DNA from: Armatimonadota bacterium
Lineage (GTDB): Bacteria; Armatimonadota; Fimbriimonadia; Fimbriimonadales; Fimbriimonadaceae
DNA length: 64,000 nucleotides
Assembly: GCA_018268395.1 (NCBI GenBank)
Contig: JAFDWQ010000001.1
Coordinates: 144,788-208,787 of the forward strand
Direction of reading: 5' to 3'
A program made the translations under genes and the position numbers. The stretch's first letter is position 1. The number at the start of each line of letters is the position of its first letter. Positions 23,469-53,105 of this stretch are shown here, piece after piece. The notes below the pieces were generated by a model. It saw nothing but the letters and a program-made list of their open reading frames with translations. It had not been told where the DNA came from and ran no database searches.

Positions 23469-23671
23469 GTTCGAGGCTCCTGGTCAGGTACGAAACTCAG
23501 GGCCACCGCCGTGACAAGGACCACGAGCGCGACGAGCGGCACAGGCGAGGCGTCCAATTGCGCGACGTAGCGGGCCGTACTGCCCGAGAAATAAGACCAC
23601 TGGCTCGCGAAATAGCCTCCCGCAGACAGAAGCGCCGCCGCCAGTCCGACGGCCGTTCGCAGAGCCTTCAT
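23465..23671 (-). CDS. Small two-helix membrane protein between aroB and the pseudokinase
   Basis: A 68-residue protein with hydrophobic segments VGLAAALLSAGGYFA and PLVALVVLVTAVALSFV separated by a short polar loop, topped by a Lys/Arg start. Its start overlaps the end of aroB by 4 bases, and its stop overlaps the pseudokinase start by 4 bases, so it is part of the same translationally coupled operon. I see no family signature. Being coupled to a membrane pseudokinase it may be a partner protein, which is inference only. Confidence 0.7.
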   Translation of the reverse strand: MKALRTAVGLAAALLSAGGYFASQWSYFSGSTARYVAQLDASPVPLVALVVLVTAVALSFVPDQEPRT

Positions 23672-24687
23672 CGTATCGCCAACGCTTCCAGGACTGCCGA
23701 CCTTTCCACGCCTCTGATAAGTTTACACTCGCCTGGCCTTTCCACGAGGCTGAACGTCAGGCCCTGCCCCTCGACTTTCTTGTCCCGGCGCATGGCGTCG
23801 GCCAACGCTTCGGCCGCAAGGCCCTCGGGAACGACGGTCGGAAGCCCCTGTAACGCGAGGCCCAAGCGGGCCCGATCGGCCGTTCCGGGCTCCGTGACGC
23901 CGATCCGCTCTCCGAGCCTCGCTTCCACGACCATCCCTACGGCGACAGCCTCGCCATGGTTGAGTCCGCGATACTCCTGAAGCGCCTCGATCGCGTGTCC
24001 GACCGTGTGGCCGAAGTTCAAGACGGCCCTGCGGCCCGTCGTCTCGAATTCGTCGTTTTGGACGACCTCCGCTTTCAGCTCCAAACACCTTCGGACGATC
24101 CCGTCCAGGTCCGACCCGAGTCCCAGGGGCTGGGTCTCGAGCTCGGCAAGCAGACCGGCGTCAAGGGTCAGCCCGTACTTCCAGACTTCTGCCGCCCCGC
24201 AAAGGAGCTCACGGTGCGGAAGGGTCTTGAGGAACCCCGTCGCGACCCGGACTTCTCTTGGCGGCCAGAAGGCGCCGACGAGGTTCTTCCCTTCCGGAAG
24301 GTCGATCGCGACCTTGCCACCGATCGACGAGTCGACCATGGCCATCAAACTGGTGGGCACCATCACGAGGTCTACGCCCCTCATGTATGCAGCGGCGACG
24401 AAGCCGGCCAAGTCTCCGACCACGCCACCTCCGAACGCGACGACCGTCGTCCGCCGGTTGGCGCCGGTCTCGGCGAGCCAGGACGTACAACGGCCGAACT
24501 CCCCGAGGCACTTGCTCGACTCTCCGGCAAGCACCGAACGGACGGTGCGACCGTCGAGGAGGTCCGGATACAGCCTCGACAGGTTCGAATCCGTGACCGT
24601 CCGGACATCTACCGGAAGACCCGCGAATGCCTCCGCAACGTCGACGAAGCGGATGGGATATTCGCCCCGGGAGGTCTCGACCGTCAT
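23668..24687 (-). CDS. aroB: 3-dehydroquinate synthase
   Basis: The second step of the shikimate pathway, DAHP to 3-dehydroquinate, NAD- and metal-dependent. Signatures are VVAFGGGVVGDLAGFVAA, VPTSLMAMVDSSIGGKVA and the metal-site NFGHTVGHAIEA with LNHGEAVAVGM. 339 residues, normal to slightly short. It overlaps aroK by 4 bases upstream and the small membrane protein by 4 bases downstream. Confidence 0.97.
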   Translation of the reverse strand: MTVETSRGEYPIRFVDVAEAFAGLPVDVRTVTDSNLSRLYPDLLDGRTVRSVLAGESSKCLGEFGRCTSWLAETGANRRTTVVAFGGGVVGDLAGFVAAAYMRGVDLVMVPTSLMAMVDSSIGGKVAIDLPEGKNLVGAFWPPREVRVATGFLKTLPHRELLCGAAEVWKYGLTLDAGLLAELETQPLGLGSDLDGIVRRCLELKAEVVQNDEFETTGRRAVLNFGHTVGHAIEALQEYRGLNHGEAVAVGMVVEARLGERIGVTEPGTADRARLGLALQGLPTVVPEGLAAEALADAMRRDKKVEGQGLTFSLVERPGECKLIRGVERSAVLEALAIR

Positions 24688-25190
24688 TCCCCCAGCAGCA
24701 TCTCCTTGATGCGCGACGCGACGACGTCATGGTCCTCCGCACCTGAGGGCACGACGAAATCGGCTCGAAGGTACAGGTCGCGGCGCTGGGTGAGGAGAGA
24801 GTCGAACCGCTCTTCCCAGTCGGCATGTTCGAGCAAGGGCCGCTTGCGCTTGGTCGTCCTTAACCGCTCTTTGAGGACTTCAGGCAGGACGTCGAGGAAG
24901 ACGACGACGCCCAAACGGTGCATTTCGGCCCAGTTGTCTTCACGGAGGACGATCCCGCCCCCCGTCGCTAAGACGCCTTCTTCCTCGGTCATCTCGGCAA
25001 GGACCAAGTGCTCGTGTTCGCGGAAGGCGGTCTCGCCATAGATCTGGAACCATTGACGGATCGGGCGTCCGAGCCGCCGCTCGAGCAAGACGTCCGTATC
25101 GAGGAACGGGACGTCGAGCGATCCGGCCAGCTTCATGCCGACCGTACTCTTCCCGCTACCCATCATACCGACCAAGATCACGAGAGCCAT
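24684..25190 (-). CDS. aroK: Shikimate kinase
   Basis: A small P-loop kinase of 168 residues: Walker A GMMGSGKSTVG, substrate-binding DTDVLLERR, and ATGGGIVLRE. It phosphorylates shikimate. It directly follows the pilMNOPQ block, as in gamma-proteobacteria. The ATG lies only 10 bases past the pilQ terminator hairpin, and no Shine-Dalgarno sequence fits between. Expression may depend on read-through of the hairpin or on an unseen start signal within it. Confidence 0.96.
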   Translation of the reverse strand: MALVILVGMMGSGKSTVGMKLAGSLDVPFLDTDVLLERRLGRPIRQWFQIYGETAFREHEHLVLAEMTEEEGVLATGGGIVLREDNWAEMHRLGVVVFLDVLPEVLKERLRTTKRKRPLLEHADWEERFDSLLTQRRDLYLRADFVVPSGAEDHDVVASRIKEMLLGE

Positions 25191-25200
25191 AGAAAACGAA

Positions 25201-25230
25201 GCGACGGAAGGGATCGCTCCCGTCCGTCGC
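25201..25230 (-). terminator. Terminator/attenuator hairpin between pilQ and aroK
   Basis: Read on the minus strand, an 8-bp stem plus a 4-bp inner stem (one mismatch, 4-base loop) is followed by TTCGTTTTCT, which runs straight into the aroK ATG at 25190. Confidence 0.75.
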
Positions 25231-25259
25231 CGGAGGATACTGGTTTTTTCCGCTCGGTC

Positions 25260-26828
25260 TTACGGTTGCAGACCGAGTTCGTCTTCTTGGACGATGTTCG
25301 GGGTCACGAAGACCACGAGCTCGCTCGAACTCTTGGCATCGTTGCGGCCCCGGAACAGTTGGCCGATGATCGGCAGGTCGGACAGCACCGGGATCTTCTT
25401 CACGGTGTAGCTGTCGTTCTTCGTCGTGAACCCGGCCAGAGCGATCGTCTCGCCGTTCTTCACGATGGTCGCCACTTGGATCTGCTGGCTCGTGAAGTTC
25501 GGGTACTGCGTGCCGTCCGGACCGACCGAGAAGCCCGTGATGTTCGCGATCTGCGGCGTCAGGGTCATCGCGATCGAGTTGTCGTTGTTGATACGCGGCC
25601 GGACGACCAAGAACGTCTGGATCGTGAGAGGCGTCGGGTTGTAGAACGTGGTCTGACCACCGGGGCCGTTCGTGACGATCGGCAGGAAGAGGTAGGTCGT
25701 GACGTTCTGCGAAACGAGCGCCGTCTGGTTGTTCAACGTCCGAAGCAACGGCGCACTGACCACGCGGCCCCAACCGTTGTTCATCAGGGTCCGCAAGCGG
25801 GTGCTGATGTTGCCCGTCGCATAGTTGAAGAACACGGGGTCGCCGGACCGGGCGAACTCGCCAGGCCGGACGCCGGCGTTGACGGTGCCGCGGCTATAGA
25901 GCCAGTCGATGCCGAGCGCACGGTCCGAGCTCTGCGTCGTCGAAACGAACTCGACCTTGATGACGACCTGTCGGGGCTGCTTGTCGAACTGCTCGATGAT
26001 CCGTTCGAGTTCGCGGATGGCTTCTTCTGTGCCTTGCACGAGGAAGGAGTTGTCCGTCGGGTCGTACATGATGCGGTCGATGCCTTGCGGCACGAGGCCG
26101 TCACCGCCGCGGAGCCCCGTGACGCCGCCCTGTTGGCCGCCCGGGTTGTTCTGTCCGCCCGCTCCACCGCCGGGTTGGCCGCCTCCGGCGCCGCCGCCCA
26201 ACTGTGGGGCCGCTTCGTCCGGCAGGACGATGTCCGACGTGGTCGGCTTGGGGCTCGCCGTCTGAAGGACGGACTGGCCCGAACCGTACATCTGGAACAC
26301 GTTGTTCATCGCCTTCGGCGTCGTCGACGAGTTCTGCATGAACTTGTCGATCTCGGTCAGGCCGTGGTCGCTGTCGTAGACGACGTCCTTCAGCATCGCC
26401 CGGACCAGGTCCGGATCGGCCTTCATCAGCTTGATCGTCTTGGTGATGTGCGGCCTCGCGACCGCGACTTCGGGCTGCTGCTTCTCGGTGGTCGGCTCTT
26501 CCTTTTTGCCGCTCGAAATGACGAAGACGCCGTTCGAGTCCTTCTCGGCATAGGCGCCTGCCGCGTCGCAGATGTACCGGATCGCCTGCTCCGCCGTTTG
26601 CTGGCTGAGCTGCAGGCTGATCTTCTTAAAGTCGCCGGAGCCGGGCTTCACGACGAACTGGAGGCCCGTCTGAAGCGTCAGCGCCTGGATGGCTGCTTGA
26701 AGGTCGGCGTCCCGCAGGAAGAGGTCGACCTTCTTCTGAAGGACGTCCTCCTGCGCGAATGCGAGGGTCGTGAACGAGACCGTCGCCGCGAGCGCCGCGA
26801 CGGTCCTTGCGAGTCTGTTCCAATTCAT
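25260..26828 (-). CDS. pilQ: Type IV pilus secretin PilQ
   Basis: The outer membrane pore through which the pilus fibre passes. Signal peptide MNWNRLARTVAALAATVSFTTLAFAQ. An STN/N0-like domain (~28-100) contains DLFLRDADLQAAIQAL. Secretin N1-type sequences (TKTIKLMKADPDLVRAML) are followed by a Gly-rich linker (~residues 208-243), an N-domain (NSFLVQGTEEAIRELERIIE) and the secretin core with VVIKVEFVSTTQSSDRALGIDW, the ending VKKIPVLSDLPIIGQLF and ELVVFVTPNIV. At 522 residues it is shorter than proteobacterial PilQ (~700) because the AMIN domains are absent. AGGAGG lies nine bases before the ATG. Confidence 0.95.
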   Translation of the reverse strand: MNWNRLARTVAALAATVSFTTLAFAQEDVLQKKVDLFLRDADLQAAIQALTLQTGLQFVVKPGSGDFKKISLQLSQQTAEQAIRYICDAAGAYAEKDSNGVFVISSGKKEEPTTEKQQPEVAVARPHITKTIKLMKADPDLVRAMLKDVVYDSDHGLTEIDKFMQNSSTTPKAMNNVFQMYGSGQSVLQTASPKPTTSDIVLPDEAAPQLGGGAGGGQPGGGAGGQNNPGGQQGGVTGLRGGDGLVPQGIDRIMYDPTDNSFLVQGTEEAIRELERIIEQFDKQPRQVVIKVEFVSTTQSSDRALGIDWLYSRGTVNAGVRPGEFARSGDPVFFNYATGNISTRLRTLMNNGWGRVVSAPLLRTLNNQTALVSQNVTTYLFLPIVTNGPGGQTTFYNPTPLTIQTFLVVRPRINNDNSIAMTLTPQIANITGFSVGPDGTQYPNFTSQQIQVATIVKNGETIALAGFTTKNDSYTVKKIPVLSDLPIIGQLFRGRNDAKSSSELVVFVTPNIVQEDELGLQP

Positions 26829-26863
26829 TACCAGTATCCTCCTGATCGTGTCGTCCTGAGCGG

Positions 26864-27583
26864 TCAGCGCCCGAAGCCGCCGCCGCCGCCGCCGCCAAAG
26901 CCGCCGCCGCCGAAGCCGCCGCCGCTAAAGCCGCCGCCGCCGAAACCGCCGCCGCCGAAGCCGCCGCCGCTAAAGCCGCCGCCGCCGAAGCCGCCGCCGC
27001 TGAAACCGCCGCCCGAGAAGCCGCCGCCGCTGAAACCGCCGCCCGAGAAGCCGCCGCCGCCGAAGCCGCCGCCGCCGCCGAGCCCCGTCATGGTGCTGGA
27101 CTCCGGCTGCGTACCGATGTCGATCGTGCCCGCGAGGATCTGGCTGATCAACTGCGGGTCGGCGTGGCGGACCTTGATCCGGACCGTCGGCTTGGACGTC
27201 GACGTGTTCGGCAGGTTGCCGGTGTCCGTGTTGCCCGGGTTCAAGTTGACTTCAGGCTTCGGGATGATCGTGTAGGTCGTGCCCTCGACGCGGTACGTCG
27301 CATTGACCTGGTTGAGGATGTTCCTCAACGCGGTCTGGAACGGGACGTCCTTCAAATGGACGGTGACCGTGCCTTGGACTTCCTGCGAGACCGTGTAGTT
27401 AGCGTTCACGATCTTGAACAGGGCCTTCAGAGCGTCGCGGACGTCAGCCTGATCGAGGTTGAGTTCGGCGATGTTCTGGTTGTTGACGTCCTGGTTCTGG
27501 GCCGTCGAGGAAACGGGCGCGGTCAATGCCGTCGCCAGTACCGCGAAGCCCAGCAAGGTTCCGAAGAGAGTTCTTGATTTCAT
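26864..27583 (-). CDS. Periplasmic STN-domain protein with C-terminal [S/G]GGGF repeats
   Basis: From ATG 27583 (GAGG six bases upstream; an earlier ATG at 27595 overlaps that site) the protein has 239 residues. A signal peptide is followed by an STN/secretin N0-like domain (~40-110): LNLDQADVRDALKALFKIVN and VTVHLKDVPFQTALRNIL. A second segment, VRIKVRHADPQLISQIL, resembles the start of an N1 domain. The last ~70 residues are 14 Phe-ended Gly blocks, mostly [S/G]GGGF pentads. The gene lies 35 bases upstream of pilQ, which has its own N0 domain, so this is an extra, separate N0-like partner not found in the classic pilMNOPQ operon. It may cap or gate the secretin; that is inference. Confidence 0.85.
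   Translation of the reverse strand: MKSRTLFGTLLGFAVLATALTAPVSSTAQNQDVNNQNIAELNLDQADVRDALKALFKIVNANYTVSQEVQGTVTVHLKDVPFQTALRNILNQVNATYRVEGTTYTIIPKPEVNLNPGNTDTGNLPNTSTSKPTVRIKVRHADPQLISQILAGTIDIGTQPESSTMTGLGGGGGFGGGGFSGGGFSGGGFSGGGFSGGGFGGGGFSGGGFGGGGFGGGGFSGGGFGGGGFGGGGGGGFGR
26870..27081. repeat. Tandem GC-rich repeats coding for [S/G]GGGF pentads
   Basis: About 14 imperfect 15-base units of CCG-type triplets separated by GAA (Phe on the minus strand), with GCT/GCC variation giving S or G at the first position. The tract lies wholly inside the STN-domain gene and is prone to length change by slippage. Confidence 0.9.
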
Positions 27584-27651: not shown

Positions 27652-28350
27652 TTAGCTTCCACTCATGGAGGCGCCGCCACCGCCCGCCGGGTTGCCGCGG
27701 CTCGGACCGGAAGGAGGCCCGTCGTTTCCGCCTCGGTTGCCGCCGCCCGTTCCTCCGCCTGTACCGCCCGATGGCTGGTCTCGAGGAGGTGCGCCTTGTA
27801 ACGGGACGACGAAGACGGTCGGAAGTTTGCCCGCTGGTCTCCGAAGGACGGCACGGTCGGAGTCGATCGATACCACCGTCCAGTCGCTGTTCGGGATCTT
27901 CATGCCAGGCCGGATGTCGAACACCTCGTTGCCGGTATCGAGCAGCGCGACGACACCGTTCCCGATGATCACGCCCGTCAGGCGCCATGCCGGCAACGGT
28001 TCGACCACCGGCGCGACGTCGTCTTTGGCCTCGGGCTCAGTGAACATAGTCGCAAAGCCGCCGCCGTCGTTCAAGAGCCGGAACGACGTTTGGGCCCGTT
28101 CGAACGTGGCTTCTGACGGAAGGAGCGCAAAGGCGTCCCGCCGTGTCCGGAAGAACTTTGTCTGTGCGAGCTGCAAGGCGTCGTTCCCAGGCGTCGCGAC
28201 GACGGCCGCGCCGATGCCGGCCGCAGCGGCCGGTTGATGGGCCGGCGGGTTGTACGGCGGTACGGTCGTCAGCTCCTGCGTCTTGTCGCCGACGTCGCAT
28301 CCCGTCAGGACGACGGCCAGCGCTCCCAGCACGATCCAGCTCTTCGACAT
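27652..28350 (-). CDS. pilP: PilP-like pilus assembly lipoprotein
   Basis: From ATG 28350 (AGGA five bases upstream) the protein begins MSKSWIVLGALAVVLTGC, a lipoprotein signal with lipobox LTGC. Its 232 residues hold a low-order central region and then a small beta domain with AWRLTGVIIGNGVVALLDTG and FDIRPGMKIPNSDWTVVSID, which has the pattern of the PilP/GspC HR domain that contacts the secretin. The C-terminal ~45 residues are Gly/Pro/Asn-rich. Assignment rests on this domain pattern and on the pilM-N-O-P-Q gene order more than on strong identity. The in-frame extension to 28467 is ignored because the lipobox start is convincing. Confidence 0.82.
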   Translation of the reverse strand: MSKSWIVLGALAVVLTGCDVGDKTQELTTVPPYNPPAHQPAAAAGIGAAVVATPGNDALQLAQTKFFRTRRDAFALLPSEATFERAQTSFRLLNDGGGFATMFTEPEAKDDVAPVVEPLPAWRLTGVIIGNGVVALLDTGNEVFDIRPGMKIPNSDWTVVSIDSDRAVLRRPAGKLPTVFVVPLQGAPPRDQPSGGTGGGTGGGNRGGNDGPPSGPSRGNPAGGGGASMSGS

Positions 28351-28396: not shown

Positions 28397-29143
28397 TTAT
28401 CTGCCTCCCGGCTTAGGGCCGGTCGGGCTCGGAGCGTTGCCGCCCGGAGCTTGACCGCCGCCCGCACCCGTCGATTCCGGCACGGTCGGCGCGACTTCCG
28501 TGCCCCGGATGTAGGCCACGAGGGTCAGATTGTACGTCCCCGTCATGGTCGGGGTCGTCCCTGATAACTGAAGACCGTCCGCGACGGCCAGATAGTTCGG
28601 CATGCTCGACCAGGCCCGGACGTGGGACATGATCTGCGCGTAGCTCCCGGTCACCGTGACCGCACCCAAGTTGAAGACCAACACGGGGAACCGGATCGCA
28701 GGATAGTTGTAATACTCGACGATCTGGGCCGCGTTGCCAGGAGGCGACGGGATCCGCGGACCGTTCACGACCCTGACCCCGCCGCGCCGCAATTGGGCGT
28801 TGACGGCGTTCTGGACGCTGTTCCGGAACTTGACGGAATCGTTGGTCAACTGCCAGCGGTTGACCGCCAGGTTGATTCCGCCCGAGCCCACGTTGTTCGG
28901 CGGCGTCTTGACCGCGACGATCTTCTGCCACTCGAGCTCCATCTTCTGGACGTCTTGCTCGGCTTTCTTGACCTTGTCGTTGGCCTGCTTCTGCTTGCCG
29001 GCTTGCTCGATGTAGCGGTTGGCCAGTTCGTTCTGGTACTTGGCTTCCTCGACGTTCGGCAGGAAGTTCGTCAGGGTGACCATCGCCGCGATCACGGCAA
29101 GGCTCAACCCGATGACGAAGATAGAAATTGGACTTAATTTCAT
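28397..29143 (-). CDS. pilO: PilO-like inner membrane pilus assembly protein
   Basis: A 248-residue protein with one N-terminal transmembrane helix (ISIFVIGLSLAVIAAMVTL), a charged coiled-coil region (~33-75; QANDKVKKAEQDVQKMELEW) and a periplasmic alpha/beta domain with FNLGAVTVTGSYAQIMSHV, as in PilO/GspM. The last ~28 residues are Gly/Pro-rich. Its place is 15 bases after pilN. It should form heterodimers with PilN that link PilM to PilP. Confidence 0.85.
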   Translation of the reverse strand: MKLSPISIFVIGLSLAVIAAMVTLTNFLPNVEEAKYQNELANRYIEQAGKQKQANDKVKKAEQDVQKMELEWQKIVAVKTPPNNVGSGGINLAVNRWQLTNDSVKFRNSVQNAVNAQLRRGGVRVVNGPRIPSPPGNAAQIVEYYNYPAIRFPVLVFNLGAVTVTGSYAQIMSHVRAWSSMPNYLAVADGLQLSGTTPTMTGTYNLTLVAYIRGTEVAPTVPESTGAGGGQAPGGNAPSPTGPKPGGR

Positions 29144-29158: not shown

Positions 29159-30058
29159 TTAGTCGGCGTTGTCCCCTCCGACGCCGCGACGGTTGTTCGG
29201 TCCGGCCGGACCGGGCGCCGGCCCGCTCGGTGTCGGCGTCGTGTTCCCAGGGCCGCCGCCGCCGCCAGGAGCGGGCGAGTTGGACGCGCCGCCTTGGGCC
29301 CTCAACGTCGCCTCAGGGTCCGGGGTCTGGATGTCCCGGTTGATCGTGACGACCAGGGTGATGACCGACCAGTCCGGCATCGCGCCCTTCCGGGTCGCGT
29401 CCGGAACGCCGAACCCTTCGGCCCCGACGAATCCGCGCGGAGCCGATTCGGCCCTCGCGATCATCTCTTCGAGCCTGGCCATCGGGTCGCTCGGTAAATT
29501 CGATTCGCCCGGCCTCACGGGGAGGCCGCGTTGGTCGCCGTCGTTCAGCGCCGGGACGACCGGCCGGACGTCGGCGAAACCGGCCCGGGTCACGTTCGTC
29601 GCTCCCGGGATCCTCAACATCGCGAGCATGATGTCCGCGTATTGCTGGTACGTCTGGATGACGCCCGTCAACGAGACCGTGCACAGCCCCGGCCCCAGCG
29701 ACGTCGCGGTGACGTCCGTCACACGGAAGAACGTCGGGACATAGGACAGGACGTCGCGGTACAGGTCGGGATAGACCGTATTGTGCTTGAGCATGGCGTT
29801 CGCCAGCTTCAAGTTCCGGTCGATGACCACGGAACCGGCCATGATGTCGTCGGCCTTCTTGGCCGTGGCGACCGCCGTGTCGTAATTGGTCTTGTACTTG
29901 GCGGCCCGGTCCTTCGCGGCCGTCAGTTCCTGGTTCGACCAGAACATCGCATAGGCGCCGACGGCGATGGCGCCGACCACCATCAGGCCGGACGCGACCC
30001 AGGCGACTTTGGACTGTCCTTCCTTTGAGACGTGCGTTGGCAGCAGGTTGAGCTTCAT
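29159..30058 (-). CDS. pilN: PilN-like inner membrane pilus assembly protein
   Basis: The N-terminus MKLNLLPTHVSKE matches the conserved INLLP motif of PilN, which docks in a groove of PilM. A transmembrane helix (VAWVASGLMVVGAIAVGAYAM) and a periplasmic coiled coil (ELTAAKDRAAKYKTNYDTAV) follow, then a ferredoxin-like domain with VSLTGVIQTYQQYADIMLAM. At 299 residues it is longer than usual (~190-230), owing to an inserted loop and a Gly/Pro/Asn-rich tail of about 45 residues. It starts nine bases after pilM. Confidence 0.88.
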   Translation of the reverse strand: MKLNLLPTHVSKEGQSKVAWVASGLMVVGAIAVGAYAMFWSNQELTAAKDRAAKYKTNYDTAVATAKKADDIMAGSVVIDRNLKLANAMLKHNTVYPDLYRDVLSYVPTFFRVTDVTATSLGPGLCTVSLTGVIQTYQQYADIMLAMLRIPGATNVTRAGFADVRPVVPALNDGDQRGLPVRPGESNLPSDPMARLEEMIARAESAPRGFVGAEGFGVPDATRKGAMPDWSVITLVVTINRDIQTPDPEATLRAQGGASNSPAPGGGGGPGNTTPTPSGPAPGPAGPNNRRGVGGDNAD

Positions 30059-30067
30059 CTTTCGTCC

Positions 30068-31282
30068 TTAAAAGCAGATGTGCAGGCCGTTGCCCAGCGC
30101 CACTGCGAACTCCTGACGGTCCTCGTCACGGAAACTGTCGGTCTTTTTCGCCGAAACCGTCAGGCCCCGGAGCGGGTCCATGAGTTCGGCAGGAAGTCCG
30201 ATCGCGGATTCGAGAAAGGCGACTAGCCCCTTCATTTTCGCCCCGCCGCCGCAGACCAGCAGCATGTCCACCTCACCGCCTTTGCTGCGGAAATAGTCCA
30301 CGGAGCGCCGCACCTCGGCCACGAACTCGTCCATGACCGCGGCCATCGCTTGATAACCCCGGTCGGGAGCGACGTCCTGGGCCACCGGGACCGGGGCGGC
30401 AGGAACGGCCTCTTCGGCCGCGGGCTCTGCCGGCGGGGCGCCCAACGACTCGTCGGGCTCGGCGAACGGGTTGTAAGGGGTGAACGTCTGGGTCGCGGCC
30501 GTATCGAACGGGTTGTACGACCCGGACTGGGCTCCGGGCCCGGTCGGGACGACCACTTCGGACTTAATGTGTTCGGCCTCGTCGAAGGACACACCAAGAC
30601 CGTCGGCGATCGCCTTGGTCATCATTTCTCCGCCGATCGGGACTTGGCGAGGCATCAAGAGCTTGCCGTCCCGGTAGACGTTGATGGCCGTCGTCTTGTG
30701 GCCGATGTCGACCACGCAGACGGACTTGCCCGCAAGCTCGGAACTGTAGGCCGTAGCGACCGTCCGGGCCATGCCGAGCGGCTCGACGTCGATCGCGGCC
30801 GGTTTACGGCCAGACTTCTTCACGAGCGAGATCAGCGAGTCCACCGCGGACTGCGGCGCGATCGCCATCACGACGTCCATGTTCTGTGGGTTGTTCGGGG
30901 CCGGCGGGAACGCTTTGTAGTCGCTCACGACCGTGCTCTCGGCGAACGGGATGTTCCGGGTGATCTCCCAGTCCATGTGCTGTTTGAGCTCCGCGTCGCT
31001 CATCGCAGGGACCTCGAGCGTCCGGACAAGGACCGCGCCTTGGCCCGCGACCGAGATCACGACGTCGCCGACGCTGGCCCCTGCCGAACCGCAGAGTTGC
31101 TTCAGGACGTTCGAGACGCTGTCGTAGTCGTGGATGCCGATATGGTCGACGGCACCGTCCGGAGTTTGGGCCAGTCCAAGAGCGGTCACGGTCGGGCGTC
31201 CGCCCTGCAACTTGACCTCGGCGATCTTGATGGTCTGACTTCCTATGTCCACACCGAGGACACTGCTCAATTTCTTGGCCAT
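30068..31282 (-). CDS. pilM: Type IV pilus assembly protein PilM
   Basis: A cytoplasmic actin-like (FtsA-like) ATP-binding protein: phosphate-1 motif LGVDIGSQTIKIAEV, phosphate-2 region VCVVDIGHKTTAINVY, adenosine motif LLVCGGGAKMKGL. It anchors PilN and connects the motor with the alignment complex. It has 404 residues against ~350 usually. The excess is an Ala/Pro/Glu-rich insert (~240-310) carrying two YNPF tetrapeptides. It is the first gene of pilMNOP-STN-pilQ and has a strong promoter 34 bases upstream. Confidence 0.96.
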   Translation of the reverse strand: MAKKLSSVLGVDIGSQTIKIAEVKLQGGRPTVTALGLAQTPDGAVDHIGIHDYDSVSNVLKQLCGSAGASVGDVVISVAGQGAVLVRTLEVPAMSDAELKQHMDWEITRNIPFAESTVVSDYKAFPPAPNNPQNMDVVMAIAPQSAVDSLISLVKKSGRKPAAIDVEPLGMARTVATAYSSELAGKSVCVVDIGHKTTAINVYRDGKLLMPRQVPIGGEMMTKAIADGLGVSFDEAEHIKSEVVVPTGPGAQSGSYNPFDTAATQTFTPYNPFAEPDESLGAPPAEPAAEEAVPAAPVPVAQDVAPDRGYQAMAAVMDEFVAEVRRSVDYFRSKGGEVDMLLVCGGGAKMKGLVAFLESAIGLPAELMDPLRGLTVSAKKTDSFRDEDRQEFAVALGNGLHICF

Positions 31283-31464: not shown

Positions 31465-34400
31465 TTACTGGTTCGGCCGTTTCGGCGAGAACCGGGGCGC
31501 GACCGTCTGGAAATAGACGTCCGGTTGCCCCGTCCGAGAACTCGACCAGAAGAACCAAAGGAGGCCGGGTTTGCGCCCTGCCACAGGGTCGATGTTGTTG
31601 AACGGCGAGTTCAACGGGTCCAGTGCGATCGAGAGGCCCGACTCGTTGCCCACCTGTTCGATCGGAACTGCTTGTTCGAGCAGTTCAGGGATCTGCCGGA
31701 CGGTCCACGCCTCGGTGAGCCGGCCGATAAAGCGGCCGCTTTCGTCCACCGCATCGTACGTCACCGTCACCCGTCGGTCCTCGTTCCCGGTCAGGAAGAA
31801 GACGCGGCCTGTCGCCGGGTCGAACTGGGCATAGTGCTCGACGGCCACGCCGCCGCCCCAGTTGTCGACGCGGAAGTAGGTCGCGGCCCCGTTCTGGTCC
31901 GTCTGGATCGCATTGGCCAGGACGATTCCCGGCCGGAGCGTCTGATAGAACGGCCGGGCCGCGGCCGTACCGTCGCCCGAAGTCCGAGTGTAGGCGACGA
32001 CCGTGCGGTCCCACCTGAGCGGCGAGTCCGGCTGAGCGGCGTTGACTTCGCCGACCCAGTTCTGCAGGTCGCCCAAGAGGTTGCGCTGCGGGTTGCCCGG
32101 CACGACCCGGACGCCGATGAAGCGGTCGTCATAGGTCGTGGCGACCGAGCGGTAATTGGCGCCCGTCCCCGTGCTGACGCGGACGATCGACGGCCGGTAC
32201 TTGATGTACAGCCTGGTCCCGCGGGGCAGGATCACGCCCGTCATGCGGACCGCGCCGGTCGACGATTCGAGAAGGACGCTGCCGCCGAAGCGGGAGTTGA
32301 ACTTCAAGATGCCGGACGCCTGGTCGAAGTCGCGGGTCGCCGTCTTCTGGTCCCAGATCGAGCCGGTCGCGCCGGACGGGTCCGTCGTGATGTCGATCTG
32401 GTCGAGCGACGCCTGGTCGGTCACCCATTGCAGGCCCGGAGCCCAGAACACGCCCGTCGCCGGGTCGAGCGTCAGATCGTCGATCAGAGGATCGGTGGCC
32501 GTGCCGTAAGGCAAGACCGAGTTACGGCCCGTCGGCACGCCCGTGAACAGGCTCGCCGTCAACCGGGCCATGTAGACCTCGCTGAACTTTCGGCCGCGGA
32601 CCTTGCCCGTGAAAGTCAAGTTGATCCGGCCTTGGTTCCCGTCGCGATAGCGGCGGGCGAACGCGCTCGGAGCGCCAAGGTTCTCGAAGGCGTTCCCTAG
32701 CCGCAGGCTGCCCTGCGTCCACAGGTTCGACGTGGAGTTGTAGTTGTTCCAGACGATCTGGCCGAGGCCGTTCGAATAGGTCGAGTAGAACACCGAGGCG
32801 TACGACGTGCTGCCAAGGGTCGTGTTGACCAAGCTCAGCCTGCTCTTCTTGACCGTCGGGTCGAAGGGCGACGTCAGGATCGCACCCGGATTGTAGTTGA
32901 TCGTCCCGTCGGCCGCGAACGTCATCGGCACGAGCATGATCTCGCTCAGCGGGACGGAGGTGCCCGAAGCGTCCCGCTTCGTGGCCTCGCCCAGCATCGC
33001 CATGTACTTGCCGTTGTTCCAAGACCGGCCCGTCGTCGCGGGGTACTCGAGGAAATTGAAGAACCCGCTTGTCGGGAACGTCGGCGCGCCGAAGGCGACC
33101 GAGTCGAGGTCGAGCGTCTCGCCGTTGGCCGTGTCCACCGAGAACACGTTGGCGGGCGGGTCGATCAAGAGCGTCTGCTTGTACCAGCGCGAATTGTTCT
33201 CGGCCGTCCAGGCGTTCAGGTCGTTGATCGGGCTTTCACCGAGGGAGTTCCCCAGCGTCGACCGCAAGGATCCGACGTAGATCCGCCATTTGTCCTGGCG
33301 TAGCAGGTCGGTCTCGGTGCGCTGCATCGCGTTCCAGCCCGGCGTGTTGGCGTTCTCGAGCCTGTTCGAGGCCCAGGCGACGAACACGTTGCCGTTCCCG
33401 TCGCGCATCGCGCTCGGCACGGAGTTCGACCACAGGAAGTTCCCCGTCGCGGTCGGCAGGCTTTCGACCATCGGAGCCGACTTCGTCGTGGGCAGGTTGG
33501 TCATCCGGCCCTCACGGACCGTGAACTTCAGATTCGCTCCAGGGTCGGTGTACGCTTCGTCGGTGCCCAAAGACGGGTTGTCCGCGTTCATGTCGTTACC
33601 CGTGTTGCTGTTCTCGAACGCGAACACCTTTCGGATGTACTGCCCCGAGGGAGCGCCGATCGGTGCGCTGACGCCGATCTTCGGATCGCCGGGAACGATC
33701 TGACCCGGGTTGAACAGGTAGCCGCCCGCCGTCCGCAAGTTCGCGTTCGGCCTGCTCCTGGGGTTGACGTTGTAACGCGTCCCGATCAAGTCGTTCGGCC
33801 TCGGCTTCTGAAGGATGTTCCTTCCGAGCGGGTCGAACCCTGGGCCGCTACCGACCAGCAACGACGCCGAATACCTTCGGTCGATCGACGAGTGCAGGTG
33901 GAGAGAAGCGTCCAGCCAGGCTAGTTCGTGCTGGCCGGGCATGAACAACTCGACCGGGCGGTTGCCGTTCGCGTCGAAGAAGAACTTCGCGAGCCTCAGG
34001 TCGAGCATGTTCTCGTTCCCGTCGTTCGAGACGGCGAACGGTTGGAACAGGTTGTTGTAGGCCGGGTTCCACGGGCTGAACTGCGTGTTCGGGTCCCAAG
34101 GCAGGAACGGGCCGAAACCTGCGCCTCCGTTGTAGCCGCCGCCCGAAGGAAGCGACCCCATGTCCAGGGTGGGGGTCTGGAAGTTGATCCGCTGGTCGCG
34201 GGCGACGTCCAGTCCGATCCCGAACGTGCGGAACGAGCCGACCGTCGGATCGAGCGTCGAGTTTCCGCCCTGCGGGTCGATGAACATGATCTGACTGCCG
34301 TAGTAGTCGCTCTTGCTCGAAGGCTGGTAGCGCGGCACGAGCAGGCTCATCTCGAACACGGTCGGGGTGACCCGGCGGGTCATCTGGGCTTCATAGCCCG

Positions 34401-37400
34401 TCAGCGTCCGGTAGTTGGTGGCGTTCGCCGGTGCGATGAACGGCGCGTTCAGCGAAATGCCGGACGGGTACAGCGGGTTCTGGGCCTGTCCGAACAGATT
34501 GGCCGTCATCGCCAAGCCTTCCCGTCCCACGTTGGGATAGTCAAGGCTCGTGTTCGGCACGTTGACCGGATAGTCTTCGAACCCAGGGTAGTTGACGCCG
34601 TTCTGAAGCAACGGTTGGAACACGCCGCCCGTCGTCGGATCGGTCAGGTCTTTGACCCAAGCGATGTCGCGCGGGCCGACCCGGACTCCGTCCAGGCCGC
34701 GACCCAGCAGGATCGCCATCAAGCTTCGGTCGACGACGTACAGCTGCTGGACGCCGAGCGATCCGTGACTGACGGGTTGCCCCTTGCTCCGGAGGTCAGG
34801 CCCGACCGGGCCTGCTGGCTCGCCCGCCGCCGGGTTCTGGTCCGTTCCCACGTTGCCGTTCGAGTTGTACAGGGGCCATCGCGGGTCGCCCGTGTTGACC
34901 ACGATCGTCGGATCGGGGTTCACGAGGGTCGGCAGGCACACGCTCGAGTTCACGATGCCGCTGTCGTCCAGGTACGCCAGTGCCAACGGGTTCGCGATAA
35001 AGTAGTCGGCATTGACCGGCGGGTTGAACGTGGCCGGCTTGAAGAGCCGGACGGCCGTGCCCTGATTCCGCGTTCCGGCCGAAGTCGCCCGGGCGGAGAG
35101 AAGGTTCGGGCCTGGGCCGATGCCGCCGATACCGGTCGTCATCAGAGGAATGCCCCGGAGCACGAAGCCGCGGTTCTGGGCGTCGCCCGTGTACTGCCGG
35201 ATCGGAGACTGGAAGCGCTGGGCCGTACGGCCCGGGCTGCTCATTTCGAACTCGATGTAGTAGTTCGCGGTCGAACCCGTCCCTTCCGGAAGGTCGTAGA
35301 TCAAGACGTACAGCGTCTCGCCGAAGTCGAAATGGCGCCGTTGGGCGGCCGAGTTCTGGGCGACCTGAAGGACCTCCGCCGCCGTCACCCCGACGTTCGG
35401 GTCGTCGATCTTCTGCCGCAACTGGTCGTACTGCTCGGGCGAGATCAGGATGAACTTGTTCGGGTCGATCGCGTTATCCAGCAGATCGAGGTCGGGATCG
35501 TTCTGTCCAGGATCGCGGAAGCCGGGCGGGACGCCAGGAACCATCGGAATGTCCTTCGTATCGAGGATCGAGTTGAAGGCGTAGAGGTAGCCGCTACTGT
35601 CGCCCGCATAGGCCCACGAATGGACGTTCAGACCGTTATTGAAGCCACCCGTGATGGCGGGCGACACTTGCGCCTGGCCGTCCATCGCGTAGCCCCACAC
35701 CTTGGTGAAGCCGGCCTTGTTCAAGAGGCCGTTCGCGCTCAACGCGGTCAAGCGGCCGTCGACGGTCGTCACGATGACGGCCGGGATGTCCTGCCGGATC
35801 GAGCCGATGTTGTCGTACTGCGCTGTGAACAGGAACCGGAGCGGCCCGGCAGAGCCTGCGGGCAGTTCGTTCGTCGACCACGCGACCGTTCCCGACGCGG
35901 GATCGAGGGACGCGAAAAGCCCGGCGTCGTCGGCGACGAAGAGCCGGTCGTTCCCGGTGTCGGCCGTTCCGCCCCACGTTCCCGCAGGCGGGTTCAACAT
36001 GGAGGCCGGGACCGAAATCGGCGACGACGCGCCGAACCGCGAGAAACCGCCGATGCCGGCGCCGTCTTGCGTCCAAGCCAACGTCCCGTCCCCTTCGTTC
36101 AGGGCGTACATCGTGCCCGTGGTCGCGGTCTGGTCAGGCGCGGCTCCGAAGAACACGCGTCCACCCGTGACCACCGGGGTCATCTGGACCGGACCGAGGA
36201 CCGGGTCGGTCGCCAGTGGGTACTGCCAGACGATCGAGGACTTCTTCGTGGCGAGGTTGCCCGCGGCGTCGAGCGCGATCACGCGCCCTTCTTGCGTCGG
36301 GACGATCACGATCGGGACGTTGCCGGCCGCCGTACCGAAGGACAGGGATCCCACGATCGGCTGGACGCCGGCCTGCATCGGCACGTTCGGAGCCGAAGGG
36401 TCGTAGTCGTCGGGCCAGGTCCAGCGCCTGCGCGCCGTTCCGTCACCACGACCGGACATTTCGATGCAGTACACCTTGCCGTTCTGGGATGCGACGAAAA
36501 GCAGGTCGGTGCCGCCGACGTTGGCCACGAGGGCCGAGGTCAGGTCGAACCCGGCCGCCGTTTCGGCGATCCGGTCCTTACCGTCTTCGGCAGGATCGTT
36601 GTTCGGATCGGTCGACCCTTCCGTCGGGTACGTCCAGTACACCTGGGGCGGCGCGCCGGTCGTCGGGTCGCCATGGGCGTCCGTACAGTACAGCCGGCCG
36701 TTCTCCATGGCCACGACAAGGACGTCGCGGTTGACCGGGCCACCGCCCGTCTGGACGGTCGTCGTCACTTGCAGCGGGGTCGAATCGATACCCAGATCGG
36801 CTTGACGGACGAAGCGCACGGCGTCGGCGTGGACGTCTTTACCCGCGTCGAGCGGCTCGGTGGTCTGGTTGGTGATGACGACCTGGAGCGGCTGAGCGTC
36901 GGAGTGGGCGTACCCTCCCGTCCTTTGGAACGGAACGCGGTACCAACCTCTGGGCTGGCTCTCGTCAAGGTCGAGCAGGTCGACTTGCGTCCCGCCGATC
37001 AAGACCCTCATCTGGACCTTTCTTGGGCCGTTGTTGCCCGGCATCCAGACGTCGATGAAATAGTTGGCCGCAGGCATGTTCTGCCCGAAGGTCGCTTCTT
37101 CGGTCGGGGCGCCCGAGATCGCAGGCGTCGACGCGAAGGTGGGGCCGTAGTCGTCGGCGCCTCCCGCCGATGGAAGGAAGTTGGCCGTCGCGGCGAAACC
37201 GCCGTTCAGGTTGTCGACGACGACGTGCTGGTCGGTACGGTCCTTACCCGCCGCCATGATCCAGTCGCGCTTGTCGCGACCGTAGCGGCTGAGTTCGGCG
37301 TCCGTCCCGTCGAAGGGACGGCGGGCCGGCCAACTGAAGACCTTGTTGTAGCGGGTCTGCCATGAACCTGCGACCGAGAATCCTAGCGCGTCATAGCTCG

Positions 37401-38388
37401 TCACGACGCCGAGGTTGTAGTTCCGGTCAAGGTCGCCGACGACCGCCGGTTCGCTCCGGGCCGCCGAGACCCTCCACGGAATCGACTCGGTGCCGCCTCC
37501 TGGAGGCGGAGCGTTCAGACGGCCGACGATCGGAGCCGCCGTGTAGACGCCCCGGCTCCCGCCGCCCTCGACGCCCAGGCCGACCGCGTCGGCGTAGACG
37601 AGCTGCTGGTTCAAGAGCGCCGGGTTCGCGTTCAAGGCCGGATCCAGGAACTGGCCGTTCTCGCCGACGGGCGCGGTGTTGAAGACCGTGACGGTCAATG
37701 TCGTCCCCGTCGGGGTGAACGTCAGCGTCGTCTGATCGCCGTTGTTGCCCAAGCGGACGAAATCCCCCGCATGCGTGTCGTAGTTGATGACGTCGGTGTG
37801 GTCGCCGCCCTGGGCTCCCGTCACTCGGACGACCATGTACTTCTGCGGATAGCGCAGGTCGAGGATCGTCCCGCCCCCCACGTCGGACGGGCCGACCGGA
37901 ATGTTCAGCGACAACGAATACGCCCGAGCGGTGCTCAGGTTGTTGAACTGGAACGAATAGCTCCGGGTCGATCCTGCCGCCGGATCGTCGGCGCTCGTGC
38001 CTTTGACGAGCCCGCTATAGCGGTAGATCTGCGGAACGCCCAGAGCCTTGTAGTAGTTGAAGGCGACGATTTGGCCCGGTGTCGGATCTCCCCACGACGC
38101 GTTCGGCGTGTCGAACGACGTGCCGAAGACTCCCGTCTGGTCGTTGTCCAAGTAGACTTTGGACTCGACGACGGGATCCCACCACCGGAGGAAGCCCCGG
38201 CCGAAGTCGTTGTACTGCTGGGGCGGGAAAGCCCCGGCATTGACGTCGACAGGGAGGCCCGTGCGGTTCGGGTTGGCCGAGTGCATGGGGAAGTCCTGCG
38301 CCACGGCTACGAGGGCCATGACACCGACGGCCACCACGGCCGTGCCGAGCTTTTGAAGCTTTTTAAGAATCGTCCTCTGAGTGAGCAT
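31465..38388 (-). CDS. Giant secreted PQQ-type beta-propeller protein, PilY1-like in position
   Basis: A 2307-residue protein with signal peptide MLTQRTILKKLQKLGTAVVA...AVAQ. After ~300 unassigned residues there is a golvesin/CBM-like module (~425-525; PRGWYRVPFQRTGGY, HADAVRFV). Next comes a PQQ-like propeller region (~540-950) with repeats such as VVAMENGRLYCTDAHG, VASQNGKVYCIEMSG, TQEGRVIALDAAGN and DRLFVADDAGLFASLDPASG. The remaining ~1350 residues are Asn/Thr/Gly/Pro-rich, beta-like, and contain WASNRLEN and FFWSSSRTGQPDVYF, similar to WD40/TolB-type blades. No C-terminal anchor is seen. It is last in the pilin operon, 14 bases after the 1603-aa gene. The order pilin-pilV-pilW-pilX-this mirrors pilY1 operons, suggesting a pilus-tip adhesin. 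Confidence 0.85.
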   Translation of the reverse strand: MLTQRTILKKLQKLGTAVVAVGVMALVAVAQDFPMHSANPNRTGLPVDVNAGAFPPQQYNDFGRGFLRWWDPVVESKVYLDNDQTGVFGTSFDTPNASWGDPTPGQIVAFNYYKALGVPQIYRYSGLVKGTSADDPAAGSTRSYSFQFNNLSTARAYSLSLNIPVGPSDVGGGTILDLRYPQKYMVVRVTGAQGGDHTDVINYDTHAGDFVRLGNNGDQTTLTFTPTGTTLTVTVFNTAPVGENGQFLDPALNANPALLNQQLVYADAVGLGVEGGGSRGVYTAAPIVGRLNAPPPGGGTESIPWRVSAARSEPAVVGDLDRNYNLGVVTSYDALGFSVAGSWQTRYNKVFSWPARRPFDGTDAELSRYGRDKRDWIMAAGKDRTDQHVVVDNLNGGFAATANFLPSAGGADDYGPTFASTPAISGAPTEEATFGQNMPAANYFIDVWMPGNNGPRKVQMRVLIGGTQVDLLDLDESQPRGWYRVPFQRTGGYAHSDAQPLQVVITNQTTEPLDAGKDVHADAVRFVRQADLGIDSTPLQVTTTVQTGGGPVNRDVLVVAMENGRLYCTDAHGDPTTGAPPQVYWTYPTEGSTDPNNDPAEDGKDRIAETAAGFDLTSALVANVGGTDLLFVASQNGKVYCIEMSGRGDGTARRRWTWPDDYDPSAPNVPMQAGVQPIVGSLSFGTAAGNVPIVIVPTQEGRVIALDAAGNLATKKSSIVWQYPLATDPVLGPVQMTPVVTGGRVFFGAAPDQTATTGTMYALNEGDGTLAWTQDGAGIGGFSRFGASSPISVPASMLNPPAGTWGGTADTGNDRLFVADDAGLFASLDPASGTVAWSTNELPAGSAGPLRFLFTAQYDNIGSIRQDIPAVIVTTVDGRLTALSANGLLNKAGFTKVWGYAMDGQAQVSPAITGGFNNGLNVHSWAYAGDSSGYLYAFNSILDTKDIPMVPGVPPGFRDPGQNDPDLDLLDNAIDPNKFILISPEQYDQLRQKIDDPNVGVTAAEVLQVAQNSAAQRRHFDFGETLYVLIYDLPEGTGSTANYYIEFEMSSPGRTAQRFQSPIRQYTGDAQNRGFVLRGIPLMTTGIGGIGPGPNLLSARATSAGTRNQGTAVRLFKPATFNPPVNADYFIANPLALAYLDDSGIVNSSVCLPTLVNPDPTIVVNTGDPRWPLYNSNGNVGTDQNPAAGEPAGPVGPDLRSKGQPVSHGSLGVQQLYVVDRSLMAILLGRGLDGVRVGPRDIAWVKDLTDPTTGGVFQPLLQNGVNYPGFEDYPVNVPNTSLDYPNVGREGLAMTANLFGQAQNPLYPSGISLNAPFIAPANATNYRTLTGYEAQMTRRVTPTVFEMSLLVPRYQPSSKSDYYGSQIMFIDPQGGNSTLDPTVGSFRTFGIGLDVARDQRINFQTPTLDMGSLPSGGGYNGGAGFGPFLPWDPNTQFSPWNPAYNNLFQPFAVSNDGNENMLDLRLAKFFFDANGNRPVELFMPGQHELAWLDASLHLHSSIDRRYSASLLVGSGPGFDPLGRNILQKPRPNDLIGTRYNVNPRSRPNANLRTAGGYLFNPGQIVPGDPKIGVSAPIGAPSGQYIRKVFAFENSNTGNDMNADNPSLGTDEAYTDPGANLKFTVREGRMTNLPTTKSAPMVESLPTATGNFLWSNSVPSAMRDGNGNVFVAWASNRLENANTPGWNAMQRTETDLLRQDKWRIYVGSLRSTLGNSLGESPINDLNAWTAENNSRWYKQTLLIDPPANVFSVDTANGETLDLDSVAFGAPTFPTSGFFNFLEYPATTGRSWNNGKYMAMLGEATKRDASGTSVPLSEIMLVPMTFAADGTINYNPGAILTSPFDPTVKKSRLSLVNTTLGSTSYASVFYSTYSNGLGQIVWNNYNSTSNLWTQGSLRLGNAFENLGAPSAFARRYRDGNQGRINLTFTGKVRGRKFSEVYMARLTASLFTGVPTGRNSVLPYGTATDPLIDDLTLDPATGVFWAPGLQWVTDQASLDQIDITTDPSGATGSIWDQKTATRDFDQASGILKFNSRFGGSVLLESSTGAVRMTGVILPRGTRLYIKYRPSIVRVSTGTGANYRSVATTYDDRFIGVRVVPGNPQRNLLGDLQNWVGEVNAAQPDSPLRWDRTVVAYTRTSGDGTAAARPFYQTLRPGIVLANAIQTDQNGAATYFRVDNWGGGVAVEHYAQFDPATGRVFFLTGNEDRRVTVTYDAVDESGRFIGRLTEAWTVRQIPELLEQAVPIEQVGNESGLSIALDPLNSPFNNIDPVAGRKPGLLWFFWSSSRTGQPDVYFQTVAPRFSPKRPNQ

Positions 38389-46486: not shown

Positions 46487-46499
46487 GGTCAAAAGGCTC

Positions 46500-51902: not shown

Positions 51903-52964
51903 TTATGCGCCCCCAAAAAACGTCTGGGTATACGAATTTACGAGCGCCGTCAACTGCGGTTCGAACAGCACCGCACCCAAAGCGCCCGCAGCAAGATAAG
52001 GCCCGAACGGGATCATGGTCAATTCTACTTGAGGCTCGTCCTCGATTGCTTCGACCGCATAGGGGTCTTCGGCGAACCAGCGTTCGTAAAGCTTCGGGAC
52101 CACGAGGCCGATCACGTCGATACAGAGCACGTACCCCAGTCCGCACGTGATCAAGGACCCGAAGCTCTCCGGCTGTTCGTCTTCGTACGCGTCGTCGCTT
52201 TCCGGCTCGCCCTTGCGGGAGAGCGCCCGGACCAACACCAGCAGACCACCGATCACGGCGCCCAATATGACGGCCAGCCCGAAACTGACCAGCGCCATCA
52301 TCGGGAACAAGACGGCCCCGATCCCTCGCGCCATTTTGATGTCACCGTGGCCCATCGCGTCCTTGCGGAAGAGCAGCCGGCCTAAAAAGGCGATGCCCCA
52401 AAGGGCCCCGACTCCGGCCAGAGCCCCCGCCAGGGCGCTCGGAACCCCCGCCGTCCATGCTTCCGGCCGACCCTGGGCGATCATGACCGCGTTCATCCCG
52501 AGTCCGGTGATCAACATGAACGCGTTGACCTGGTCAGGGATGATGTAATGGGCGAGGTCCGTGAAGATCGCGGCCACGAGCGCGCTCGCGAACAACATGA
52601 ACGCGACGGCCTTGACAGGGTCCCCAGCCATCACCGTGACCTGGCCGGCGCCGCCGACGGCGTCGGGACGGCTCAAGTACATCCACCAGATCCAGCCCCA
52701 CAACGTGCCGTTCACAAGTTCGACCCAAAAGTAGCGGCTACTGACCGGGGCTTTGCAGTGGCGGCACTTGCGGCCCAAGAACAGCCAGCTCAGGAGCGGG
52801 ACGAGGTCCGGGCCGGTCAGGCGGTGCTTGCACACGGGACAAAAGCTGTGGGTCGGTTTGGCGACCCCTAGACCCCTAGGGAGCCGATAGATCACGACGT
52901 TCAAAAAGCTGCCGACCGCCGCCCCGATCCAAAACCCGATGATCCACGTCCACTCTGGGAACAC
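51903..52964 (-). CDS. pilD: Prepilin peptidase / N-methyltransferase PilD
   Basis: From GTG 52964 (AAGGAGG eight bases upstream) the protein has 353 residues with about eight membrane helices. The N-terminal methyltransferase-type domain has AAVGSFLNVVIYRLPRG and a zinc-type CPVC...CRHC tetracysteine pair. The A24 aspartic peptidase site uses TDLAHYIIPDQ and GHGDIKMARGIG (usual GxGD). It cleaves and methylates the pilins encoded downstream. A charged cytoplasmic loop (EPESDDAYEDEQPES) and a C-terminal extension after the last usual helix are extra. The in-frame extension to 53096 lacks a start signal. Confidence 0.95.
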   Translation of the reverse strand: MFPEWTWIIGFWIGAAVGSFLNVVIYRLPRGLGVAKPTHSFCPVCKHRLTGPDLVPLLSWLFLGRKCRHCKAPVSSRYFWVELVNGTLWGWIWWMYLSRPDAVGGAGQVTVMAGDPVKAVAFMLFASALVAAIFTDLAHYIIPDQVNAFMLITGLGMNAVMIAQGRPEAWTAGVPSALAGALAGVGALWGIAFLGRLLFRKDAMGHGDIKMARGIGAVLFPMMALVSFGLAVILGAVIGGLLVLVRALSRKGEPESDDAYEDEQPESFGSLITCGLGYVLCIDVIGLVVPKLYERWFAEDPYAVEAIEDEPQVELTMIPFGPYLAAGALGAVLFEPQLTALVNSYTQTFFGGA

Positions 52965-53076
52965 GCCACGCCCCTCCTTGGGCCTCGCGGAGGTTACCGC
53001 AAGCCGCCCTGACCGGATTATCGGGAGCCTGCCCTCGGACGAGGAGTCCGGAACGGTACAGACCCGGCGCGGCCCG

Positions 53077-53085
53077 TGATATCCT
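53077..53085 (+). promoter_or_regulatory. Extended -10 promoter candidate of the glycosidase/esterase gene
   Basis: TGATATCCT fits TGnTATnnT and lies 20 bases upstream of the ATG, giving a short leader that contains AAGGAAGG. No clear -35. On the opposite strand GATAAT at 53022-53017 could serve pilD. Confidence 0.45.
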
Positions 53086-53105
53086 GCCCGCGACAAGGAA
53101 GGACC

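Follow-up and report, generated by a model that had tools for sequence, protein, structure and literature searches.

STNG, a separately encoded N0-domain protein with a glycine/hydrophobic tail, beside the secretin gene in pilMNOPQ-type operons of Armatimonadota

Secretins are among the largest pores of the bacterial outer membrane. The N0 domain is a ring or docking module in known outer-membrane machines (PMC3093366). In the type IVb systems, TcpQ is required for the stability and location of TcpC, and BfpG for the BfpB multimer; the same source mentions a TcpQ domain family and reports BfpG as a non-lipoprotein (PMC4971541). BfpB is predicted to have an N0 of its own (PMC12114550), so that an N0 within a secretin is compatible with a second, separate one. 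DotD has the N0 fold and is a separate subunit of its outer-membrane complex (PMC2951367), and an extra ring of N0 domains has been proposed for Xanthomonas VirB7 (PMC3093366). The type IVa pilus clusters of Proteobacteria show the gene order pilMNOPQ-aroK-aroB, and the PilQ set described there has its N0 within the secretin chain (PMC7545093).

The gene described here, for which the name STNG is used, lies on the minus strand at 26864..27583 of the window, that is, the whole stretch of 64,000 nucleotides that was analysed. It runs from an ATG at 27583 to a stop at 26864 and encodes 239 aa; an alternative start at 27595 gives a product 4 residues longer. The protein comprises a Sec-type signal peptide recognised by eye (residues 1-28, ending SSTA before QN; 27500..27583), an N0 (STN) domain (residues 33-112; 27248..27487) assigned by Pfam and by an AlphaFold model with pLDDT of about 95, the first half of a Secretin_N domain of the KH-like, N3/N1 type (residues 132-152, PTVRIKVRHADPQLISQILAG; 27128..27190) assigned by profile matches, and a Gly-rich tail (residues 167-239; 26867..27085) that ends in FGR. 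AQ also stands at the end of the signal peptide in the consensus of the STNG alignment (A1). The protein has no cysteine at all and is therefore not a lipoprotein. The Pfam STN model matches with E=1.1e-9 at residues 70-113 in the numbering of the longer form, and positions 6-117 of the NCBIfam PilQ model TIGR02515 match with E=2.1e-12, far below the whole-protein cut-off. A complete Secretin_N is absent: only its first strand and helix are present, and the match to the secretin profile ends at the Gly-rich part. The secretin pore domain PF00263 gave no match in the Pfam search, and the 239-aa protein ends with its tail. Opposite the Gly tail, on the plus strand, runs an open frame of 755 aa with numerous KPPPP repeats (window 25008-27275), which could be mis-annotated as a proline-rich protein.

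The next gene on the minus strand (25260..26828) encodes the cognate short secretin (pilQ) of 522 aa, which consists of an N0, a Secretin_N with a Gly loop, and the barrel. Its Pfam matches are STN (4.2e-7), Secretin_N, and Secretin, and a profile search gave no AMIN match. With 154 bits for TIGR02517 and 139 bits for TIGR02515, both below cut-off, it stands between GspD and PilQ. In its AlphaFold model, residues 167-236 (26121..26330) have pLDDT <50; this stretch includes much of the Gly-rich loop and sits inside Secretin_N, between the helices that follow the first strand and the next strand. A Gly-rich stretch of 18-90 residues (median 57) is found in 37/37 secretins of the secretin alignment (A2), weakest in L045, and its most frequent non-Gly letter is Gln at 24.5%. 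The first-pass annotation had described a separate STN-type protein encoded directly before a secretin with its own N0-like domain, and the gene order and both STN matches bear this out. Its term "N0-domain protein" holds for the N0 and is too narrow for the whole, which also has the first half of Secretin_N; its 14 Phe-ended Gly blocks come to 13 in the 73-residue tail.

Upstream of STNG on the same strand are a gene for a pilP-like lipoprotein (MSKSWIVLGALAVVLTGC..., signal ...LTGC; 27652..28350), assigned by position and form with no profile match, then pilO (28397..29143) and pilN (29159..30058), also by position and form, and pilM (30068..31282), with TIGR01175 above cut-off. Downstream of the secretin, again on the minus strand, are aroK (shikimate kinase, 24684..25190; Pfam SKI 1.3e-41) and aroB (3-dehydroquinate synthase, 23668..24687; Pfam 1.1e-41). 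The order is thus the same as in the type IVa clusters of PMC7545093. Further upstream in the same cluster, all on the minus strand, are a pilB/gspE-like ATPase (60581-62371) and a pilC/gspF-like gene (57978-59213), both below cut-offs, pilT (59224-60519; TIGR01420 above cut-off), a prepilin peptidase (51903..53096; Pfam A24_N_bact 2.3e-28, Peptidase_A24 9.3e-13), a pseudopilin-like gene (50997-51848), and three very large genes that encode pilin-like N-termini (48832-50964, 46500-48830, and 43211-46510, the last by form only). The products of these three (window 43211-50964), of 710, 776, and, by form only, 1099 aa, are unusually large for minor pilins. Between them and pilM lie genes for two exported-looking proteins of 2307 aa (31465-38388) and 1626 aa (38403-43283) with PQQ_2 and DUF4159 matches, which may be partners of the machine, at its tip or secreted. 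A type II secretion system (T2SS) has been assigned to Armatimonadetes (PMC6668835), and the secretin scores between GspD and PilQ; pili and secretion are therefore both possible, and the machine of this cluster may be pilus-forming or secretion-like. The same genome has four secretins in all; its second pil operon, which runs from pilM to a secretin of 924 aa, has no separate N0 gene.

STNG is conserved among relatives. The folded part (167 residues) finds a match at E<=1e-3 in 57/61 genomes, these being its own and 60 relatives. The best E is <1e-19 in 52 of the 61, taken as orthologues, and the weaker matches are one fragment (G056) or presumably other N0 proteins. Across the phylum, the STNG profile matches 255/291 genomes at E<=1e-8, a loose bar that admits other N0 domains, and the secretin profile matches 251/291 at E<=1e-60. 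Among genomes of the order with <=50 contigs, 50/53 have both STNG (E<=1e-40) and the secretin (E<=1e-100), two have neither, and one has the secretin only, counted as presence per genome and not as adjacency. The two without both are G031 and G157 (STNG match only 7e-14), each of 1.5 Mb; the secretin-only genome is G037, and its contigs end there. A scan of contigs with STNG peptides of close relatives gave 3 loci, all titled Fimbriimonadaceae or Armatimonadetes. The gene is also present in G128, taken to be the cultured Fimbriimonas ginsengisoli (PMC4072686).

The place of the gene is kept as well. The secretin gene is next on the same strand after STNG in 44/53 loci from its own genome and relatives, and in 17/40 and 18/30 loci from other families and Fimbriimonas; these loci were chosen by STNG match and are therefore uninformative on absence. 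Five of the nine exceptions among the 53 stop at a contig end (L032, L038, L041, L043, L047), L033 is probably chimeric, and the remaining three are copies that lie outside the operon: L056, L057, and L023, which duplicates L057. Among the 23/40 loci without a following secretin, two (L185, L199) have upstream pil genes and stop where their contig does, and 21 have no pil gene on the fetched stretch; the corresponding 12/30 divide into 3 with pil genes and 9 without, on about 1.5 kb each side. No fusion of the STNG and secretin genes was noticed on reading the fetched loci.

Apparent absences fall at contig ends or go with absence of the secretin. The secretin (E<=1e-100) comes with no STNG match <1e-20 in seven genomes of the order (G025, G037, G057, G147, G150, G154, G177), and in 7/7 a contig ends inside the secretin gene or <= about 140 bp from it, as read from locus length for G154. 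G001, of the same genus and 96% complete, has neither STNG nor the cognate secretin; G031 has no secretin of any kind, and G054 (73% complete) gave no secretin match. Contigs end in this part of the operon in G004, G025, G037, G052, G056, and G057. True absence in relatives was considered as an explanation and rejected, as contig ends or joint absence with the cognate secretin account for the cases. The converse, a strong STNG (E<=1e-40) without the secretin at 1e-60, occurs in three genomes. In G126 and G175 the contig stops within the STNG gene, and in G164 (L268, 3256-4389) the tail continues in frame into two cold-shock domains, named by eye. Unrelated sequence also follows the tail in G050 (L033; L270 after 1648), and the loci of G164 and G050 are probably chimeric contigs joined in low-complexity sequence. 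In G006, G011, G021, G032, G048, G056, G126, G147, G150, and G175 the assembly breaks at the Gly tail, at the start of the secretin, or close to one of them, so STNG will be under-counted in draft genomes. The first-pass annotation had placed the gene as "inserted between pilP and pilQ" and proposed to look for it in related genomes. The position is right and "inserted" is misleading, as STNG is an old component of these operons, found before pilQ throughout the order and also in further families of the phylum. Absence from close relatives that have the secretin was not found: all seven candidates are at contig ends, and G001 lacks both genes. STNG is tied to the secretin by its kept place before pilQ, by co-occurrence, and by its likeness to part of the secretin N-terminus.

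This likeness extends through the folded part. The profile alignment of STNG with the cognate secretin has a probability of 99.7% and E=4e-26 over 154 columns and extends from the signal peptide as far as the first Secretin_N helix. The start of the tail is colinear with the start of the secretin's own Gly-rich part. A tree of the N0 domain was made from 55 rows, comprising every second row of A1 (STNG) and A2 (secretins) and 10 other secretins, over 83 columns and with a midpoint root. Its 26 STNG rows group with support of 100/99, its 19 secretin rows with 90/74, and the two groups are joined at 97/97, which is moderate evidence for one old duplication. STNG probably represents an old, partial copy of the secretin N-terminus, because the folded part aligns throughout, the turn to Gly-rich sequence comes at the same point, and the N0 tree joins both. 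The origin would then be an ancient duplication of the secretin N-terminus, cut inside the Gly-rich loop of Secretin_N. In two distant copies, L053 (1873-2796) and L056, an apparent second half of Secretin_N follows the Gly part, judged by eye from translations. Among seven secretins whose genomes give no STNG match at E<=1e-8, this loop varies: L250 and L253 have their own Gly plus Y/M loop, L249, L251, and L252 an intermediate Gly loop, and L248 and L254 almost none.

The AlphaFold model of the STNG core shows a firm N0 (pLDDT about 95 at residues 41-110 of the 170-residue query), with the rest loose. Its structural matches include EscC (Z 11.6) and PilQ 4av2 (Z 11.0, 30% identity), also XcpQ and GspD, as well as signalling domains of TonB receptors, anti-sigma proteins, and phage baseplate proteins. 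Among Dot/Icm chains it matches 7mud_Ad (Z 9.6), which we take to be DotD, and 6x62_Ad (Z 8.9); Foldseek gives E=0.016 for 3ady, titled DotD. The match to 9u5s_R of the BfpBG complex, presumably BfpG, is weak (Foldseek E=0.026, TMt 0.63, rank 45). The N0 fold is shared by proteins of many jobs, and the narrowing of function therefore rests on gene order and homology to the secretin. Pfam includes a TcpQ model. STNG gave no sequence match to the BfpG, TcpQ, or DotD families, with Pfam searched up to E=1 and most hits >0.1 dropped by the HMMER filters.

The nearest counterparts each share part of this architecture. BfpG and TcpQ (also LngC and CofC) are, like STNG, separately encoded exported proteins of a type IV pilus cluster, and BfpG resembles it in having an N0-like fold as a separate subunit, going by the weak 9u5s_R match; STNG adjoins the secretin gene. 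They serve type IVb secretins, whereas STNG belongs to a pilMNOPQ-type system and, unlike them, can be recognised as a probable copy of the N-terminus of its own secretin. To our knowledge, none of them has a Gly-hydrophobic tail. PilQ shares with STNG the N0 and the beginning of Secretin_N (4ar0, 4av2, 6w6m, 6ve2); STNG differs in lacking the rest of Secretin_N and the pore domain and, set against the PilQ chains of PMC7545093, in having its N0 on a separate protein. DotD and Xanthomonas VirB7 are also separate N0 subunits with a disordered extension for which ring models have been proposed; the cited accounts describe them as lipoproteins with an N-terminal extension, whereas STNG lacks cysteine and bears its tail at the C-terminus (PMC2951367, PMC3093366).

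STNG is a real, conserved accessory component, and among the entries listed by a literature search of open-licence PMC texts there was no description of an STNG-like protein. With somewhat better than even confidence, we read it as an accessory subunit of this operon's type IV pilus-type secretin that works like BfpG/TcpQ or DotD. The protein would be exported by Sec and remain in the periplasm. By binding the secretin it would add a second N0 set to the secretin's N0 end, next to the PilP-PilO-PilN inner-membrane complex, and its likely position is the periplasmic mouth of the pore, because it is tied to the secretin, resembles part of its N-terminus, and has a tail that starts where the secretin's Gly-rich part starts. 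By analogy with the described systems, the N0 layer of STNG, presumably a ring, would sit between the secretin and PilP, stabilise or assemble the secretin ring, and help to dock it to PilP. Against the subunit reading, a second N0 set is not obviously needed because the secretin already has an N0, the other pil operon of the genome has no such protein, and copies away from pil operons are common.

The tail is the most distinctive part of the protein. Its DNA is a tandem repeat with a period of 15 bp, 13.5 copies, and a score of 278 in Tandem Repeats Finder. A two-block pattern of the tail has 9 matches in the genome, 9/9 inside the STNG gene; the same pattern read backwards, as a control, has 2 matches in the genome. 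Of 130 STNG frames surveyed in the fetched loci, 113 contributed tails, not all of them adjoining pilQ; left out were 9 frames cut by a contig end, 4 from loci that were duplicate or truncated, and 4 that had no Gly tail. Tail length has a median of 73 (range 19-185), and median Gly is 68%, a value that is not independent evidence because tails were picked by Gly density and some include spacer. The non-Gly letters are mainly F (25.6%), S (14.5%), Y (10.8%), M (10.0%), R (8.0%), and L (5.8%); F/Y/M/L/I/W together make up 57.2% and D+E 1.3%. The commonest of F/Y/W/M/L is F in 71 tails, Y in 19, M in 13, L in 6, and W in 4. Big hydrophobics stand 3-5 residues apart in 72.9% of gaps, an Arg occurs within the final six residues in 91/113 tails, and the terminal residue is R, F, Y, or W in 80/113. 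Some distant members, e.g., L209, L222, L234, and L237, depart from this chemistry.

The letters of the tail drift across families and the chemistry is constant, and from this we infer selection for a sticker-and-spacer chain. Slippage or a chance repeat was considered and ruled out, as the chemistry is kept across families while the letters change. Residues one base from Gly codons (A+V+D+E+C) are only 7.7% of the non-Gly letters, which are mostly F, S, Y, M, R, and L, and Ser in the tail uses both codon classes. General low complexity of the operon was also set aside: the ends of PilP, PilO, and PilN are rich in Gly/Pro/Ser/Asn as well, but among the last 45 residues FYWMLI number 1, 5, and 0, respectively, and the 5 of PilO precede its Gly-rich part. 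The folded model excludes the tail, since A1 ends before it, and the composition of the tail suggests disorder. Such a chain would alternate Gly spacers with hydrophobic stickers set 3-5 residues apart and finish with a basic or aromatic residue, and at the pore mouth it would touch other tails and the Gly-rich loops of the secretin weakly. FG nucleoporins and Gly-aromatic sticker-spacer proteins share with it hydrophobics at short regular spacing; the likeness to FG nucleoporins is one of composition, with no homology.

From its position, a tail that lines or seals the vestibule, as the first-pass annotation had proposed, is plausible; alternatively, the tails may bind the rings to one another on their outer side. 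In the full form of this idea, all tails and the Gly-rich loops of the secretin would make one cohesive FG-like mesh that keeps the outer membrane tight while the filament passes. The composition and spacing of the 113 tails suit such a mesh, as do the colinear starts of the tail and the secretin loop and the presence of a Gly-Y/M loop inside the secretin itself in two genomes. Against these stand tails of as few as 19 residues, similar tails on copies away from the operon, a lumen-facing loop that is putative in these proteins, and the fact that secretins are already gated (PMC7545093), and the mesh appears unlikely. Somewhat lower still do we place the more specific proposal of a vestibule barrier of this phylum, in which the tails of a separate N0 ring, with 13 Phe each, and the Gly loops of the secretin would make up an FG-like, self-healing seal that the filament passes through.

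Copies without a pil gene on the fetched stretch number 21/40, 9/30, and 3/53 loci. The 21 belong to genera of f1 such as Fimbriimonas and to families f10, f12, f14, and f19, and the three are L056, L057, and L057's duplicate L023. In genus g19, taken to be Fimbriimonas, they lie at L174 (3-2947), L175 (4052-6414), and L177 (2963-3670). Those of L175 and L177 adjoin gyrA, which was profile-tested, and those of L174 a similar-looking 879-aa frame. Tandem copies occur, three each at L174 and L175 and two at L057 (G012). Gly-tailed STNG is also found on stretches without pil genes at L198, L200, L201, and L202 (f19), L203 and L213 (f12), and L196 (f14), and G183 has one copy away from the operon (L198) and one before pilQ (L204). 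At L187 (2036-3064) and L189 (2334-3173) lie genes for proteins that lack a Gly tail and show, by eye, two or three repeats of the N0; each adjoins a membrane protein gene, with TPR profile-tested at L187 only. Gly tails are found on many of the copies away from the operon, and the link between tail and operon is therefore not a strict one; such copies may serve the same ring as alternative subunits or have another job.

Their number would suit a dose-dependent regulator, and the N0 of STNG is well conserved and related to that of the secretin, so that a free N0 might rival the secretin N0 for PilP as a soluble decoy and control the docking of the inner to the outer parts of the machine. This is improbable, a shade more so than the phylum-wide barrier, since the conserved tail chemistry is left unexplained and the fixed place of one copy before pilQ suggests near-stoichiometric production. 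Tails of Gly plus aromatic residues resemble structural Gly-rich proteins. That STNG is an exported adhesive or structural protein leaving through the secretin, with the N0 as targeting piece and the tail as surface glue, is very doubtful even with the T2SS reported from Armatimonadetes, which may make the system secretion-like (PMC6668835), and with copies elsewhere, some in tandem (L174, L175, L057), because one copy stays beside the secretin and N0 elsewhere is a ring or docking module of outer-membrane machines (PMC3093366).

Read as an accessory secretin subunit, STNG would extend the occurrence of separate N0 subunits beyond type IVb pili and type IV secretion to a pilMNOPQ-type system. 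A split-off copy of the pore's first ring domain, as STNG probably is, with a Gly-plus-sticker tail has been kept in many families of one phylum. How secretins stay tight during filament passage is a standing question, and the STNG tail offers a natural test of low-complexity sequence at a pore, with the gene present in what is taken to be cultured F. ginsengisoli. If true, an FG-like vestibule seal would be a bacterial parallel to the nuclear pore barrier.
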